From: a virus
Strand: one strand, 5' to 3'
IMG/VR virus record: IMGVR_UViG_3300042691_009564
Span: 1-20,405 of that record
DNA: 20,405 bases
Each line of letters starts with the position of its first letter. Positions within the stretch are counted from its first letter, which is position 1. A program made the position numbers and the translations under genes. This document shows positions 2,336-10,962 of this stretch, piece after piece. Below the pieces are notes generated by a model. The model worked only from the letters and a program-made list of their open reading frames with translations. It was not told where the DNA came from and did no database searches.

Positions 2336-3115
2336 ATGGGCGAGAAAAAGATTTATAGGCGGTTCGACTGGACATCCGAAAAGGAAATCCGTCTGGCTGA
2401 ATTGTTTCACCAAATGCTACCGCCGTCTAAGATTGCGGAAGAGTTGGGGGTGACAGCCGCCTCAGTAGATAGTCGCGTTCGTAAGCTGGGTCTGACAAGA
2501 CCTAAAAAACATCCAGCGTATATTGTTCCTGATGACTTCGAGGAGAGAGCGAAGACGATGAACATAACACAACTGGCCCGCTATTACGAACGCGGGAGAG
2601 ATACCATCGCTAAGTGGTTCAAAATAACGAACATCGAATGCGACGAAAACTTAGCGAAGCGCGGCAAGGCCATTCCAAAATCTTTTGAGAAGATTGCGAC
2701 AAGCCTAACGCGCTCTGACTTGGCGAAGTTCTATAACTCAGACTTGCGCACCATCCGGGGCTGGCTGGAAGAGACAGGCATCACGCCGTTGACGCCAGAA
2801 GAGAAGCGGATGCGTGAGCCGGTCACGGCTAAGGACATCCTTGATCCAACGCCGCAGGAACCGCGTCGTGAATTTAAGAGCAAGGACAAACTGATCGCGG
2901 CTGATGCTGCGCAATATCTGCGCCGCATCCACGCAAACATCCACCGGGCTGACATTCAAATGTTCGAGAACTCGTCGCAGACATGGGGCGATGTGAACCA
3001 GATCAGACACCGGGGCATCAACCAGTATTATGTGTCGGGCAAAGGTGTTATGTGGCTCGACGATTTAATCGCCTACGCAGAGAGCAAGGGCTACAAGCAG
3101 AAGGAACTTATCTAA
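2336..3115 (+). CDS. DNA-binding protein with three helix-turn-helix units (GcrA-like N terminus)
   Basis: A 259-residue protein preceded by GAGGGAAC directly before the ATG. Residues 11-53 (WTSEKEIRLAELF through SRVRKLGL) follow the GcrA/Myb-like pattern of a Trp-Thr start, an IAEELGVT turn and an RVRKLGL recognition end. Two further units of similar design follow at about 67-98 (ITQLARYYERGRDTIAKWF) and 116-148 (LTRSDLAKFYNSDLRTIRGWL), which look like duplicates of each other. The C-terminal part (185-259) is a separate domain I do not recognise. It is the first gene of the long rightward operon, so a role as early transcription regulator, acting on the phage or on host GcrA/CcrM-type control, is reasonable but inferred. 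Confidence 0.8.
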   Translation: MGEKKIYRRFDWTSEKEIRLAELFHQMLPPSKIAEELGVTAASVDSRVRKLGLTRPKKHPAYIVPDDFEERAKTMNITQLARYYERGRDTIAKWFKITNIECDENLAKRGKAIPKSFEKIATSLTRSDLAKFYNSDLRTIRGWLEETGITPLTPEEKRMREPVTAKDILDPTPQEPRREFKSKDKLIAADAAQYLRRIHANIHRADIQMFENSSQTWGDVNQIRHRGINQYYVSGKGVMWLDDLIAYAESKGYKQKELI

Positions 3116-5042: not shown

Positions 5043-5235
5043 AGTAGAGTTAGACTTCATACCAGTATTCGTGATCGGGTTTGATGAAGACTTTGAACGC
5101 GGCGTAATAATGTTAATGCCAGCGCATGAATTGATGGCCGAAGTAGAAGAAGACTTTCAGGTATTCGCCATTGATGCCGCCATTGATATGCTCATGCAGC
5201 GGCGGGATAAGTTGGAGAAGAGGGAGTTGCACTAA
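5017..5235 (+). CDS. Small acidic protein, 72 aa, unknown
   Basis: Two ATGs are possible. The one at 5017 is preferred because GGGGGGAA sits 7 bases upstream of it, while the earlier ATG at 4996 would consume that site as coding. The protein is acidic (DEVELDF, DEDFERG, AEVEEDF) with a short hydrophobic strand (FIPVFVIGF) and a helical C terminus (DAAIDMLMQRRDKLEKREL). No family recognised. It abuts the primase-helicase gene through TAATG. Confidence 0.65.
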   Translation: MKVKMDKDEVELDFIPVFVIGFDEDFERGVIMLMPAHELMAEVEEDFQVFAIDAAIDMLMQRRDKLEKRELH

Positions 5236-7706
5236 TGAAATTCAAGACGCTGTATGAGGCGGGGTTTCAAGACCTAGTGTCTGTGATCCCGCCCAACGCC
5301 GAACTCTCGGCCATGTCTAAAATTCAGGCGGACCAAGCAGGCAAAGCGCCGGGTCGCCAGAATGCACAAGGCACATGGGGCGGCTATGGCTGGCAGGACT
5401 ACACGCCAACGCCAAATGATGTGGAGCGGTGGGACCGCAGCCACGCCAATATCGGCTTGAAGGCAAGCAAGTTCCCTGCGGTTGACATTGATGTTGTTAA
5501 CGAGGGGCTGGCTCGGGTCATTGGGGATATGGCTGCTAAGGCGTTGGGCAAAGCACCAACCCGCATCGGCAGATACCCCAAGCGGCTGCTTATGTATCGT
5601 TCGGATGAGAAGATCGGCAAGATGCAGGTCCGGTTCAAGGACGGCATGGGCGTCGAGCAGCTTGTCGAGTTCCTCGGGGACGGACAACAATACGTCATCG
5701 CTGGTATACATCCCATCACTCGGGAGCCTTACAGTCTTGATGTGGACTTGACGATCAAGGGTCCGTCCGGCCTGAAGCTGGTGACACGCGAGAAGATCGA
5801 GACGTTCTTTGCTGATCTGGCCGAGACGTTGGAGATGATGGGCTGCGAGATTATCCATGCGGATAAATCCGCGCAGAAGGCAGTCGAGCGCCAGTCGGTA
5901 GATCAGACCGGCCTCATCGCGCCAAGCATAAACCAAGTTGTCGCCGCAGTTGGGGTGATCCCCAATACGAGTGAGCATTTCCCTGATCGTGACGACTATA
6001 TCCGTATGGGCTACGCGATCAAGGCAGCGTGCGGCCCGGACAATGAGGCCGAGGCTTTTGAAATCTTCTCGGACTGGGCAAATCGGTGGGAAGATGGGGT
6101 CAATAGTCTCGATACTATTGAGGCAGACTTTGGCCGTATGCACCCGCCCTATGAGTTGGGCTGGGAGTGGATCGCGGACAAGGCCGCCAAGTTCGGCTAC
6201 AAAAAGCAAGTCGATGAGTTCGACGCGATTGATTATGCGGACGATGACTTTGGCTTAGTCGCTACAGCGGGCGAAACACCTGTCGAGTATAGCGACATTG
6301 CCTTGGCGCAGCGCGTTGCTCGGTTACACGTTTCGGATATTCGATATGTTGTCGGTGGCATGGGCTGGGTAGCTTGGGATGGTCACAAGTGGGCCAAGGA
6401 CAAAGCCAACCGGCATCTGTCGCTGGTGCGCAAGGTGTGCGCGCAGGCTTCGGCGGAAGCGTTGTCGAGGATCGATGGGGCCAAGGGTGAGCGGATCGCG
6501 CAGCGCGTTGCATCTTACAATGTGATCGCAAACGTGGCGAAGTTGGCTGCTGTTGAACCGGCAATGCAAGTCACAGTTGAGCAGCTTGACGCGGACATCT
6601 ACCATCTGAACACCAAGTCGGGCATGGTAGACCTGAAGACAGGCGCTCTCTTGCCCCATGATCGCTCACGCATGGCGACCAAATGCACAGCCGTCGAAGT
6701 GGACTTCAGCAAACCAGCACCCCAATGGCAAGCGTTTCTAAATGAGGCTTGCAATGGTGACGCTGAGTTGATCGGCTACCTTCAAAGGCTGGCGGGCTAT
6801 TCGGCTACGGGGTCTACCAAGGAGCACGTCTTGGCCTTTGCTCATGGTTCAGGGGGCAATGGCAAAGGAACCTTCCTCGGAGCCATAGGCAGCGTCCTTG
6901 GCGATTATGCTACTGTAGCGAGTGCGGACGTGTTCTTGGCGTCGAGCAGCCAGCGGCATCCGACAGAGTTGGCGTCACTCATGGGGGCCCGGCTCGTTCA
7001 CGCGCAGGAAATTGACCCGTCGCGCAAGTGGGATGAAGCTAAGGTCAAGTCCTTGACAGGCGGCGACAAGATCAGCGCACGCTTCATGCGGCAGGACTTG
7101 TTTGAGTTCTCGCCCCAGTTCACGCTCATTATCGCTGGCAACACCAAGCCGGAGATTACTAACGTCGATGACGCCATGCGGCGTCGTATGCACCTGATCC
7201 CCTTCGAGACAAAGCCCGCGAAGAAGGATGTCGATCTGCCGGATAAGCTGAAAGAGGAATACCCGGCAATTCTGGCGTGGGTGATCGAGGGCGCAAAGAT
7301 GTGGTTAGAGCGCGGGCTTGACGCGCCCAAAGTGGTTGTCGATGCGACAGAGGAATATCTGGCGGGCGAGGATGCTTTGGCGCGTTGGATCGCAGAGCGG
7401 TGCGTCTATGGCACTGAGCATGAGATGTCCACGAACGATGCGTTCGACGACTTCCGCACATGGTGCAAGGACAACAATGAAGTCAAGGGCAAGGACTGGT
7501 CGCAGCGTAAGTTTGTGGCTGAGATGAAGACCCACGGCTATGAGCATACCAAAGACCGGGCGACACGAACGAAGCGTGTGTTCCGGGGTTTGGAACTGCT
7601 GATCGGAGACGAGGACATCAAGGTCATCAAGTCCATGCTTGACCCGATGGAGGATGACTTCGGCTTTGAGATTATCGTGCGCGATGGGGACGAGGGCATA
7701 GACTGA
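5235..7706 (+). CDS. Bifunctional primase-polymerase / SF3 (D5/P4-type) helicase
   Basis: An 823-residue replication protein. The N-terminal region contains FPAVDIDVV at 80-88, the acidic D-x-D expected of a PrimPol-type catalytic site. About 230-320 resembles the PriCT-2 linker domain (YIRMGYAIKAACG, IFSDWANRWEDG, WEWIADKA). The C-terminal half is a D5/P4-family superfamily 3 helicase: Walker A GSGGNGKGT at 538-546, a Walker B-like RLVHAQEID at 586-594, sensor IIAGNTKPEI at 632-641 with N636, and Arg-finger candidates RRR at 649-651. It would unwind DNA and lay primers at the replication fork for the divergently encoded polymerase. The start within TAATG follows GGAG. It is the largest gene of the rightward early operon. 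Confidence 0.92.
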   Translation: MKFKTLYEAGFQDLVSVIPPNAELSAMSKIQADQAGKAPGRQNAQGTWGGYGWQDYTPTPNDVERWDRSHANIGLKASKFPAVDIDVVNEGLARVIGDMAAKALGKAPTRIGRYPKRLLMYRSDEKIGKMQVRFKDGMGVEQLVEFLGDGQQYVIAGIHPITREPYSLDVDLTIKGPSGLKLVTREKIETFFADLAETLEMMGCEIIHADKSAQKAVERQSVDQTGLIAPSINQVVAAVGVIPNTSEHFPDRDDYIRMGYAIKAACGPDNEAEAFEIFSDWANRWEDGVNSLDTIEADFGRMHPPYELGWEWIADKAAKFGYKKQVDEFDAIDYADDDFGLVATAGETPVEYSDIALAQRVARLHVSDIRYVVGGMGWVAWDGHKWAKDKANRHLSLVRKVCAQASAEALSRIDGAKGERIAQRVASYNVIANVAKLAAVEPAMQVTVEQLDADIYHLNTKSGMVDLKTGALLPHDRSRMATKCTAVEVDFSKPAPQWQAFLNEACNGDAELIGYLQRLAGYSATGSTKEHVLAFAHGSGGNGKGTFLGAIGSVLGDYATVASADVFLASSSQRHPTELASLMGARLVHAQEIDPSRKWDEAKVKSLTGGDKISARFMRQDLFEFSPQFTLIIAGNTKPEITNVDDAMRRRMHLIPFETKPAKKDVDLPDKLKEEYPAILAWVIEGAKMWLERGLDAPKVVVDATEEYLAGEDALARWIAERCVYGTEHEMSTNDAFDDFRTWCKDNNEVKGKDWSQRKFVAEMKTHGYEHTKDRATRTKRVFRGLELLIGDEDIKVIKSMLDPMEDDFGFEIIVRDGDEGID

Positions 7707-7707
7707 T

Positions 7708-8028
7708 ATGGCCCGGCCCAATGAGAAAGGATGTGATGCTATGTATGGTCGAGATTATGAGCGGTACAAGGACATCCGGGATGCGCTCAATGAGCAACCG
7801 GACCCGGCGGGGACAGACCCGGTAAATAGTCCTAGCCATTACAACTCAGGGGGCATCGAAGCTATCGAAGCTATAGAGAGCGCCCTAACGGGCGACAGCT
7901 TTCGAGGCTACCTGAAGGGCAACGTCATGAAATATATGTGGCGCTATGAGAAGAAGGCGAAGCCGATTGAGGACTTGAAGAAGGCCCGATGGTATCTCGA
8001 CAGGCTCATCTCGGCCTTGGAAAAATAA
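7708..8028 (+). CDS. DUF3310 family protein
   Basis: The core at about residues 37-103 has the hallmarks of DUF3310: PVNSPSHYNSGGIEAIEAIE, then YLKGNVMKYMWRYEKK, then DLKKARWYLDRLI. Phage members of this family are sometimes annotated as nucleotide kinase-like, but the biochemical role is not established. The frame opens at 7708; an in-frame ATG at 7741 has a better site (AAAGGA, 9 bases upstream) and would give a 95-residue protein that still contains the whole domain, so the start is uncertain. It is the last gene of the rightward operon and is followed at once by a terminator. Confidence 0.88.
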   Translation: MARPNEKGCDAMYGRDYERYKDIRDALNEQPDPAGTDPVNSPSHYNSGGIEAIEAIESALTGDSFRGYLKGNVMKYMWRYEKKAKPIEDLKKARWYLDRLISALEK

Positions 8029-8032
8029 AAAG

Positions 8033-8058
8033 AGGGGGCTTTAGGCCCCCTTCATTTT
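8033..8058. terminator. Bidirectional intrinsic terminator
   Basis: A hairpin AGGGGGC (8033-8039) / GCCCCCT (8045-8051) with a 5-base loop lies 4 bases after the DUF3310 stop. On the plus strand it is followed by TCATTTT. On the minus strand the same stem is followed by CTTTTTATTTTT, a better U-tract, so it should stop leftward transcripts from the terminase small subunit operon even more efficiently. Position between convergent operons fits a shared terminator. Confidence 0.8.
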
Positions 8059-8089
8059 GGCTGCAAATTAGTTTCATGTTGGCTTGATT

Positions 8090-8361
8090 AAAAATCCGGG
8101 ACGCATTTGAAGAAGTTGGGGACGCTTTGGGGACGCTTTGGGGACGGATAAAAGTGAGGATTTCTGCGGGTGGGGACGCATGGGACGGATAATTCTGAGT
8201 TAATTCGCTCATAAGTTTGTAACAGTGGTTAAATGGGTATTAAGCACTCTTACATTCTAGTGGGAACTAACCGCCGAGAAAAAGCGTCCCTTCCGTCCCG
8301 AGCCGCAGAAAAGCTGGATTTTATCCGTCCCGGATTTGTCCCGAAAGCGTCCCGGATTTTT
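8090..8361. repeat. 272-bp imperfect inverted-repeat element with GGGACG/CGTCCC repeats
   Basis: The non-coding stretch 8059-8389 is dominated by this structure. Its ends are perfect 15-bp inverted repeats, AAAAATCCGGGACGC (8090-8104) and GCGTCCCGGATTTTT (8347-8361). Further matched blocks occur inside the arms: TTTTATCCGTCCC, AAAGCGTCCC and CCGCAGAAA, in the same order. The left arm holds six GGGACG (8098, 8119, 8130, 8141, 8173, 8182). The right side holds five CGTCCC (8285, 8294, 8326, 8348, and 8368 just outside the element) plus one degenerate TGTCCC (8337). The centre, about 8188-8284, is AT-richer and lacks the repeats. It could be a replication origin with iterons, a multi-site operator, or a MITE-like non-autonomous element; no clear target duplication was seen. 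Confidence 0.75.
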
Positions 8362-8389
8362 CGTATCCGTCCCGGATGGCAGTTTTCCG

Positions 8390-8932
8390 TCAATCTTGTA
8401 AGAAGTCGTCATCATATGGATCGGGCAAGTCGTCTGCATCTAGGTTATGAGAGCCGACTTGTTTGATCTCGACGATTGGCTCTTCGGTTATGGCTTCCGG
8501 CTCATCCGCTTCTGAGGACGAAGAAGACGCCAAGTTAAGCTGCCTCAGTGCGTCAAGGTGTAGTTGGTTGACGTTGACTTGGACCGCTGTGGTTGGCTTG
8601 CTTTGGAACTTCTCTGGATTGGTTACGCCAGCAAGCCACTTGCGCGTCTCGATTTTGAGGCGATCAGCGTTAGCCGAGACGTGATCGGCAGCGTCCGCAA
8701 TGTCCAAGCATTCATCCGCCCATTGGTCCGCCGCAATGGCTCGGGCTTGGCGGAAGCGGTCTTGCCGTTCCGGGTCTTTCTTTATCCAGTTGTAGAGTGA
8801 TAGGTTGCTGATACCCAATTCACGAGCGAGGCCAGCCATCGTCTTGCCTGCGGCGATCTTTTCGAGAAGTGTTGTCTCGCCGATCTTGTCTAGGTTGCTG
8901 GCAATCACCCGCCGTTTAATATGTCCGGCCAT
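8390..8932 (-). CDS. Terminase small subunit
   Basis: A 180-residue protein with an N-terminal helix-turn-helix at about 18-52 (ETTLLEKIAAGKTMAGLARE, then LGISNLSLYNWIKKDP), a helical oligomerisation segment (RFRQARAIAADQWADECLDI, then RLKIETRKWLAGVTNPEKF at 91-109) and an acidic C-terminal tail with a Ser run. The ADQWADE...KWLAG...NPEKF pattern is typical of phage small terminases, which bind the packaging site and hand DNA to TerL. AAAGGA lies 6-7 bases before the ATG. Unusually it is on the opposite strand to terL and about 2 kb away. It is the last gene of the leftward operon, ending before the inverted-repeat element. Confidence 0.87.
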   Translation of the reverse strand: MAGHIKRRVIASNLDKIGETTLLEKIAAGKTMAGLARELGISNLSLYNWIKKDPERQDRFRQARAIAADQWADECLDIADAADHVSANADRLKIETRKWLAGVTNPEKFQSKPTTAVQVNVNQLHLDALRQLNLASSSSSEADEPEAITEEPIVEIKQVGSHNLDADDLPDPYDDDFLQD

Positions 8933-10161: not shown

Positions 10162-10275
10162 GTATGTCCTTGATTTTTAAGTACCCAGCCAAAAAAATTT
10201 TAGAACTTTCCGCTTGCCAAGTTGTAACTAAACCTTGTAAGAGCGGTGGGTATCAAAAAACGGGAGAAATACGTC

Positions 10276-10962
10276 ATGGCCGTCTATGGTTACACGCGAG
10301 TTTCGACAGAGGATCAGATCGAAAACACCAGCCTCGAAGATCAAGCCCGCCAAATTCAGGGCATTGCCCTTACTCACAACCTTGAACTCGACCACATCTA
10401 CGCAGAACGCGGCGTGTCTGGCGCTGTACCGCTCCTACGAAGAGACGAAGGATGTAAGTTAGCCTTTCTTCGCAAAAACGATACTGTTATCGTTTCGAAG
10501 TTGGACCGTATGTTCCGTGACGCCAGAGATGCACTGAACGTAATCGGCGATTGGGAGGCCGCTGGTATCAATCTTATCATCAACGGCTATGGTAACGTGA
10601 TGGATCGGAGCAATCCCAACGGGCGTTTCATGCTTGAGATTATGGCCGTGTTCAGTGGCGAAGAGCGCCGACGGATTAAGGAGCGCGTCACCGCTGGCAT
10701 CCGAGCCAAGAAGCAGGCCGGTGGATACGTCGGAGGCAAAGTGCCGTTCGGCTACAAGAAGGTAGGCGTAGGCCGGAAGGCCCGGCTTGTCGAAGACCCA
10801 GAACAGCAGGATGTGATCGTCACCGTCAAAGTCGCACGCCAGAAGAACTACAGCACCCGCGACATCGCCAAGATTGTCGCCAAGCGACACGGGATTGAAA
10901 TTAGCCACATGACTGTTAGTCGTATTTTGAAGGGAGAAAACTATGTCGTCCCAGCCAACTAA
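10276..10962 (+). CDS. Serine recombinase (resolvase/invertase family)
   Basis: A 228-residue site-specific recombinase; ATG 10276 is preferred to the in-frame start at 10246 because GGGAGA lies 9 bases upstream and the protein then begins at the usual MAVYGYTRVSTEDQ. The catalytic domain (1-140) shows the nucleophile S10 with R8, KLDRMFRD at 75-82 and the E-helix region SGEERRRIKERVTAGI from 127. The C-terminal part (about 153-222) has VPFGYKK and a helix-turn-helix (STRDIAKIVAKRHGIEISHM) like the start of the large serine recombinase DNA-binding region, but no zinc ribbon or coiled coil. It is thus intermediate between resolvases and large integrases. Its end overlaps the terL start by 20 bases, so the two are co-expressed. 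Confidence 0.9.
   Translation: MAVYGYTRVSTEDQIENTSLEDQARQIQGIALTHNLELDHIYAERGVSGAVPLLRRDEGCKLAFLRKNDTVIVSKLDRMFRDARDALNVIGDWEAAGINLIINGYGNVMDRSNPNGRFMLEIMAVFSGEERRRIKERVTAGIRAKKQAGGYVGGKVPFGYKKVGVGRKARLVEDPEQQDVIVTVKVARQKNYSTRDIAKIVAKRHGIEISHMTVSRILKGENYVVPAN

Follow-up and report, generated by a model that had tools for sequence, protein, structure and literature searches.

An inverted iteron array that changes in concert with the primase-helicase C-terminus is a probable replication origin in a clade of uncultured tailed phages

The stretch of viral DNA analysed here (the window; 20,405 nucleotides, IMG/VR record IMGVR_UViG_3300042691_009564) carries an array of inverted hexamer repeats that very probably constitutes the replication origin of the phage, its iterons presumably being read by the C-terminal domain of the phage's own primase-helicase. 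Between related phages the repeated word and a few residues of this C-terminus change in a coupled manner and the geometry of the array is kept, which at the level of sequence comparison strongly supports the iteron-type origin, one of several options in the original prediction for this element. The window encodes a DNA polymerase I, a Prim-Pol/D5 primase-helicase, an Sf6-like terminase small subunit (TerS), TerL and an SU10-type portal and thus belongs to a tailed phage; no close DNA relatives of the window were found among cultured phages.

As had been predicted, the array is located by a bidirectional terminator and is flanked by convergent genes, those for DUF3310 and TerS (Table 1). About 390 bp, with one small gene between, separate it from the primase stop codon and about 13 bp from the end of terS. 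The hexamer GGGACG is present 11 times in positions 8080-8390 compared to nine times in the remaining 20 kb of the window, and the chance expectation for this segment is a mean of 0.17-0.28 with a maximum of 3 (2000 Markov simulations). Eleven exact GGGACG hexamers and one GGGACA are arranged six per orientation, and the earlier count of six against six repeats, one of them degenerate and one beyond position 8361, was correct. The AT-richer centre of approximately 97 bp between the opposed sets and the perfect terminal inverted match of 15 bp (AAAAATCCGGGACGC at 8090-8104 and GCGTCCCGGATTTTT at 8347-8361; 18 nt with 94% identity in the repeat search) were likewise confirmed; larger arms (8119-8187 and 8285-8353), separated by 97 nt, show 78% complementarity. 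The element had been delimited to 8090-8361, in which the repeats are real but the limits are not those of the iteron array, which extends from 8094 to 8377. The 15-bp match aligns iteron 1 of one arm to iteron 2 of the other arm and is therefore not a transposon-like end.

Table 1 Features of the proposed origin and its surroundings in the window; iteron positions are those of the core hexamers.
Feature	Position	Strand	Basis or remark
P4/D5-family primase-helicase (Prim-Pol, D5_N, DUF5906), proposed initiator	5235-7706	+	TIGR01613 match
Primase-helicase C-terminal DNA-binding region (predicted), residues 702-795	7338-7619	+	Pox_D5 sub-cutoff match, structure models
Putative specificity residues 761, 762, 771, 773 (V, A, H, K in the window)	7515-7553	+	Residue 773 is the perfect class determinant
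DUF3310 protein, gene between primase and array	7708-8028	+	Control not tracking the word
Bidirectional intrinsic terminator	8032-8052	.	
Whole inverted iteron array, proposed replication origin	8094-8377	.	Anatomy; geometry kept in relatives
Iteron 1, + arm, GGGACG	8098-8103	+	
Iteron 2, + arm, GGGACG	8119-8124	+	
Iteron 3, + arm, GGGACG	8130-8135	+	
Iteron 4, + arm, GGGACGGATAAAA	8141-8146	+	
Iteron 5, + arm, GGGACG	8173-8178	+	
Iteron 6, + arm	8182-8187	+	9 bp past iteron 5
AT-richer centre, 97 bp, proposed melting region	8188-8284	.	AT content over 88 elements
Central inverted repeat, TGTAACAGTG (8218-8227) and CACTCTTACA (8245-8254)	8218-8254	.	On the dyad of the whole array
Iteron 6, - arm	8285-8290	-	
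Iteron 5, - arm	8294-8299	-	
Iteron 4, - arm, GGGACGGATAAAA	8326-8331	-	
Iteron 3, - arm, degenerate GGGACA	8337-8342	-	GGGACA also kept in class A relatives
Iteron 2, - arm	8348-8353	-	
Iteron 1, - arm	8368-8373	-	Outside the limits first predicted
Sf6-like terminase small subunit (TerS), conserved neighbour of the array	8390-8932	-	

Relatives were gathered from viral contigs by searches with TerS and DUF3310 and then by more distant TerS and primase queries, and anatomy, single copy number, place and geometry of the element are directly apparent from the sequences of the 89 distinct related elements collected. The array is found beside terS throughout, right after the TerS stop codon in the contigs inspected, with one copy per genome. 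A second comparable repeat cluster was absent from 20 larger contigs; the one high count of the word, in contig G006, turned out to be a coding repeat. The right-hand neighbour gene changes among the relatives (DUF3310 or HNH) and the array is constant. An ORF for an HNH-like endonuclease, recognised by eye, begins at the right end of the array in L007, L017, L018, L042, L062 and L078; an origin-directed nuclease is known from ICP1 (PMC8263062). In five relatives the contig ends are repeated and the sequences open at different points, as expected of circularly permuted genomes of 36-39 kb.

The hexamers of most elements follow a near-fixed, mirrored spacing of 20/21-11-11-32-9-[103]-9-32-11-11-20/21. 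A match to this template with five or more iterons per arm was seen in 59 of the 89 elements, and 51 match it with all twelve iterons; lineages off the template still have two inverted arms with other step lengths. Measured in helical turns of 10.5 bp, all iteron steps and offsets come close to whole numbers, so that the six sites of an arm presumably lie near one face of the helix. The centre has a median length of 97 bp and is richer in AT than the arms (63.5% versus 43%, 88 elements), and the best central inverted repeat scores 9.4 compared to 6.2 in shuffles (88 centres). This central repeat keeps its position at the exact dyad, and its sequence differs between distant lineages.

The repeated word differs between phages and changes in concert over all iterons of an element. 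Elements of class A have GGGACG or GGGACA words, those of class B have GTGCAC, GTGCAT, GGGCCG, GGGCCA or GTGCCG words mixed at set positions, and a rare third kind is represented by CGGACG elements. Since nearly all iterons of an element share one class, the reader of the word must act in trans, and since the class B word varies within one element, recognition must be tolerant. The class B iteron CCGTGCACGG (e.g. in L009 and L080) is a 10-bp palindrome, the class A iteron CCGGGACGG is not palindromic; class B iterons may be recognised by dimers.

All conserved proteins were scored for residues that follow the word class, portal, scaffold and capsid proteins being covered by the initial scan only because of too few sister pairs with data. 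The primase-helicase alone stood out, with signals above 0.6 only at residues 732, 761, 762, 771 and 773 and, weaker, at residue 626 of 823. Residue 773 was the sole one of 2562 protein columns tested that separated all of the 14 opposite-class sister pairs, lysine being associated with GGGAC and arginine with GTGC/GGGCC. Over all elements this residue fits the class in 77 of 78 cases: K773 is present in 27 of 28 class A elements, and R773 in 49 of 49 class B elements and in the one CGGACG element. Within the K773 elements, H771 goes along with GGGACG in 18 of 18 and Y, P or L771 with GGGACA in five of six; I, V and A771 are mixed. On a tree built from residues 1-700, i.e. without the C-terminus, well-supported branches account for at least seven class switches (the best tree has 14), and K/R773 followed the class in seven of seven independent pairs (p = 0.0156), residue 761 in six of seven. 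The closest pair of opposite class (L011 and L042) differs in just 6 of 98 domain residues. The exception is contig L278 (IMGVR_UViG_3300031951_001661), which combines GGGACG words with R773. Its primase side is 99.6% identical to class B relatives and its array is closest to a class A relative; this switch of parentage between element and primase indicates a chimera or a very recent recombinant.

Linkage does not explain the coupling, since the synonymous sites of the primase gene showed almost no signal (one site in 701-750 reaches 0.67) and the same holds for the residues of DUF3310, whose gene is located between the tracking residues and the array. TerS, the HTH protein, the resolvase, TerL, PolA and DUF3310 were each considered as reader of the repeats and rejected, none having a perfectly tracking residue. 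A small serine recombinase (10246-10959), found directly before TerL in most relatives, is without a residue that follows the word perfectly.

The primase-helicase is a member of the P4-family primases according to its match to TIGR01613 primase_Cterm (303.8 bits, cutoff 108.7), and D5_N (92.1 bits), DUF5906 (48.2 bits) and Prim-Pol (23.6 bits, cutoff 22.8) were matched as well. Its C-terminus matches Pox_D5 (PF03288), the family that includes the P4 origin-binding domain, with 20.6 bits, just below the cutoff of 21.4, and this match spans the word-tracking residues; P4 alpha, of which residues 671-770 represent the solved domain 1ka8, reaches 59.8 bits. A first, shallow structure model predicts a winged helix (pLDDT 59) with residues 761 and 762 in the third helix and 771 and 773 in the wing strand, and its fold alignments were mostly to winged helices (Z 5-7.5). 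A second, also shallow model is all helical (pLDDT 73), has no clear fold match and disagrees with the first one on the wing. 1KA8 was absent from the fold-search listings for both models, and a direct profile comparison of the domain with P4 alpha was too shallow. We treat the winged-helix fold as putative.

We assume that the primase-helicase, encoded 0.4 kb away, would bind each iteron through its C-terminal DNA-binding domain. One SF3 hexamer would dock to each arm with its six iterons near one face, so that two hexamers would face each other over the AT-rich centre; this centre would then melt and be primed in both directions. We infer physical binding, the number of hexamers, melting and a bidirectional start, the steps after recognition of the site by analogy to P4, SaPI/PICI and Cch2. 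The cumulative GC skew, a check proposed together with the original prediction, was determined but follows gene direction and is for this reason uninformative on an origin; third-position skew had no consistent sign.

The location of the array would also suit a pac or cos site, at which TerS binds the iterons and starts headful packaging: terS adjoins the array in all relatives, TerS carries an HTH, and the circular, differently opened assemblies are compatible with headful packaging. However, no TerS residue tracks the word, although the words differ completely and TerS is ≈80% identical across the classes, whereas residues of the primase-helicase do, and in phages ZoeJ, Fionnbharth and AcaML1 the same array lies beside the primase gene with terS not adjacent. 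The packaging site that the original prediction had also listed is therefore disfavoured and in our view unlikely. We regard it as very unlikely that the repeats are an operator or silencing site for another regulator or for the phage HTH protein encoded at 2336-3112, whose several HTH matches and fast evolution would fit such a role, as no column of this protein tracks the word and the site of the array, behind a terminator where two genes converge, is away from promoters. The HTH matches of this protein are GcrA-like and others, and with 45-52% identity it evolves much faster than its neighbours. Just as improbable is a structured RNA or DNA cruciform, a reading in which base pairing of the two arms forms a hairpin that itself serves as signal; this was proposed for origins of the pRN1 type. 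The array strand does fold far better than shuffles (z -12), and the pRN1 origin requires a stem-loop (PMC4234260); but mirrored class B iterons are no more alike than random pairs (0.322 versus 0.305, sd 0.027), hence arm pairing is not maintained, and the coupling is to residues of a protein. A MITE-like mobile element, suggested by the terminal inverted repeat, is refuted by conservation of position, there being a single copy per contig at one site in 89 distinct relatives with the spacing kept and no scattered copies, the copy-number test by which the original prediction had proposed to judge it.

The arrangement of the proposed origin recurs beside homologous primases of cultured phages. 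In Bordetella phage BPP-1, two copies of GCCTCGTTT and two of its reverse flank 64 bp; two copies of AGTGACGTT (64 bp) occur in Acinetobacter phage 4316, and two of GGGACGATA (68 bp) in Burkholderia phage BcepC6B, where the array spans the ends of the record; AcaML1 features CTGACGG three and two times. In the Mycobacterium phages Fionnbharth (GGGACAT/GGGACG) and ZoeJ (TGGACAGAT) the repeats closely follow the primase gene at its 3' end, and in AcaML1, BcepC6B, 4316 and Fionnbharth the array is directly adjacent to this gene. A strict tandem-pair pattern detected all these arrays except that of Fionnbharth, which was left out of the strict scan, and was absent from all 20 shuffles made per locus; it had no match in P4, Wrath, MR14, DSL-LC05 and ctjtQ328. 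A looser pattern identified no array by the primase in Cain, Tutumahutu, AbbeyMikolon, Bernstein, Pthi1, Validus and Halsey. Since this pattern also hit shuffled sequences (8 of 30 in the case of ZoeJ and Fionnbharth, up to half in GC-rich phages), the cultured phages serve as examples and not as a census from which prevalence could be estimated. A search of host genomes with TerS gave no match; the sole genome matched by the primase, Anaerolineales MAG L328 (CP070811.1), contains a phage fragment joined by Ns to bacterial DNA, probably a misassembly, and is not evidence for a host.

An origin together with its reader is thus proposed for an uncultured, widespread clade of phages and for several well-known cultured phages, for which no earlier description of such an origin was found in a mainly open-access literature. 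A tentative further reading, which we consider possible though rather less likely than its opposite, is that array and primase C-terminus together make up a system of replication compatibility (self-recognition) that is under diversifying selection. If so, repeated switches of the repeated word and of residues 732, 761, 762, 771 and 773, by recombination or mutation, would allow escape from origin-directed parasites, nucleases or co-infecting relatives, and the aligned set would represent a natural recognition code in which K773 corresponds to GGGAC, R773 to GTGC/GGGCC and H771 to G as the sixth base. The at least seven natural switches, some of them only six residues apart, make the recognition rule of a D5/P4-type initiator helicase directly testable and could help to predict compatible phage origins and initiators in mixed infections. 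Iteron origins read by P4-type initiators are already known from satellites and SCCmec. New, as far as we could find, are full tailed phages with such an origin, the mirrored 6+6 layout with fixed spacing and the at least seven switches that expose specificity residues; earlier reports of these features were not found in the literature searched, which covered few subscription papers.

Among the known systems most similar to this one are several satellites. PICI origins always have two iteron sets that flank an AT-rich region and were described as unique among known replicons (PMC6092414); judged from the present sequences, tailed phages whose initiator is of the same kind appear to have PICI-type origins, contrary to that statement. 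The C-termini of SaPI Rep and Cch2 bind iterons downstream of their own genes, and for SaPI Rep two hexamers appear to be involved in iteron binding (PMC7581432). Common to PICI/SaPI and the phages of this study would be an initiator helicase whose C-terminus reads iterons (PMC6092414, PMC7581432) and a site 3' of the initiator gene, here about 390 bp past the stop codon; in contrast to the satellites, we deal with a complete phage that encodes its own head and with a mirror-symmetric 6+6 array of fixed spacing behind an intervening DUF3310 gene. The SCCmec helicase Cch2 is likewise of the D5/Primase_Cterm type, and its isolated C-terminal domain binds repeats downstream of the gene (PMC7581432), but these are only three short direct repeats, inverted repeats are unnecessary for binding, and the polymerase-primase is a separate protein. 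P4 also combines a P4-family primase-helicase, alpha, with 8-bp type 1 iterons in both orientations at steps of about 9-11 bp, and in the P4 record the type 1 repeats lie beside the alpha gene and crr just beyond its terminator; however, P4 has two separated sites (ori and crr), a Toprim instead of a Prim-Pol domain and the type 1 word TGTTCAC instead of GGGACG. The pRN1 ORF904 and Bordetella phage BIP-1 systems likewise combine Prim-Pol, SF3 helicase and a C-terminal winged helix, putative in the window, with a site downstream of the gene, for which PMC4234260 proposes a stem-loop without iterons; the inverted pairs of 9-bp iterons 0.5 kb past the primase of BPP-1/BIP-1 are undiscussed in the available portion of that paper. 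Finally, in the PLE satellites of Vibrio cholerae the DNA-binding domain of the initiator RepA and the iterons of the origin covary and are swapped as a module (PMC8263062). There the initiator belongs to the RepA_N family and the whole domain is replaced, whereas in the phages described here a few residues change together with the word.
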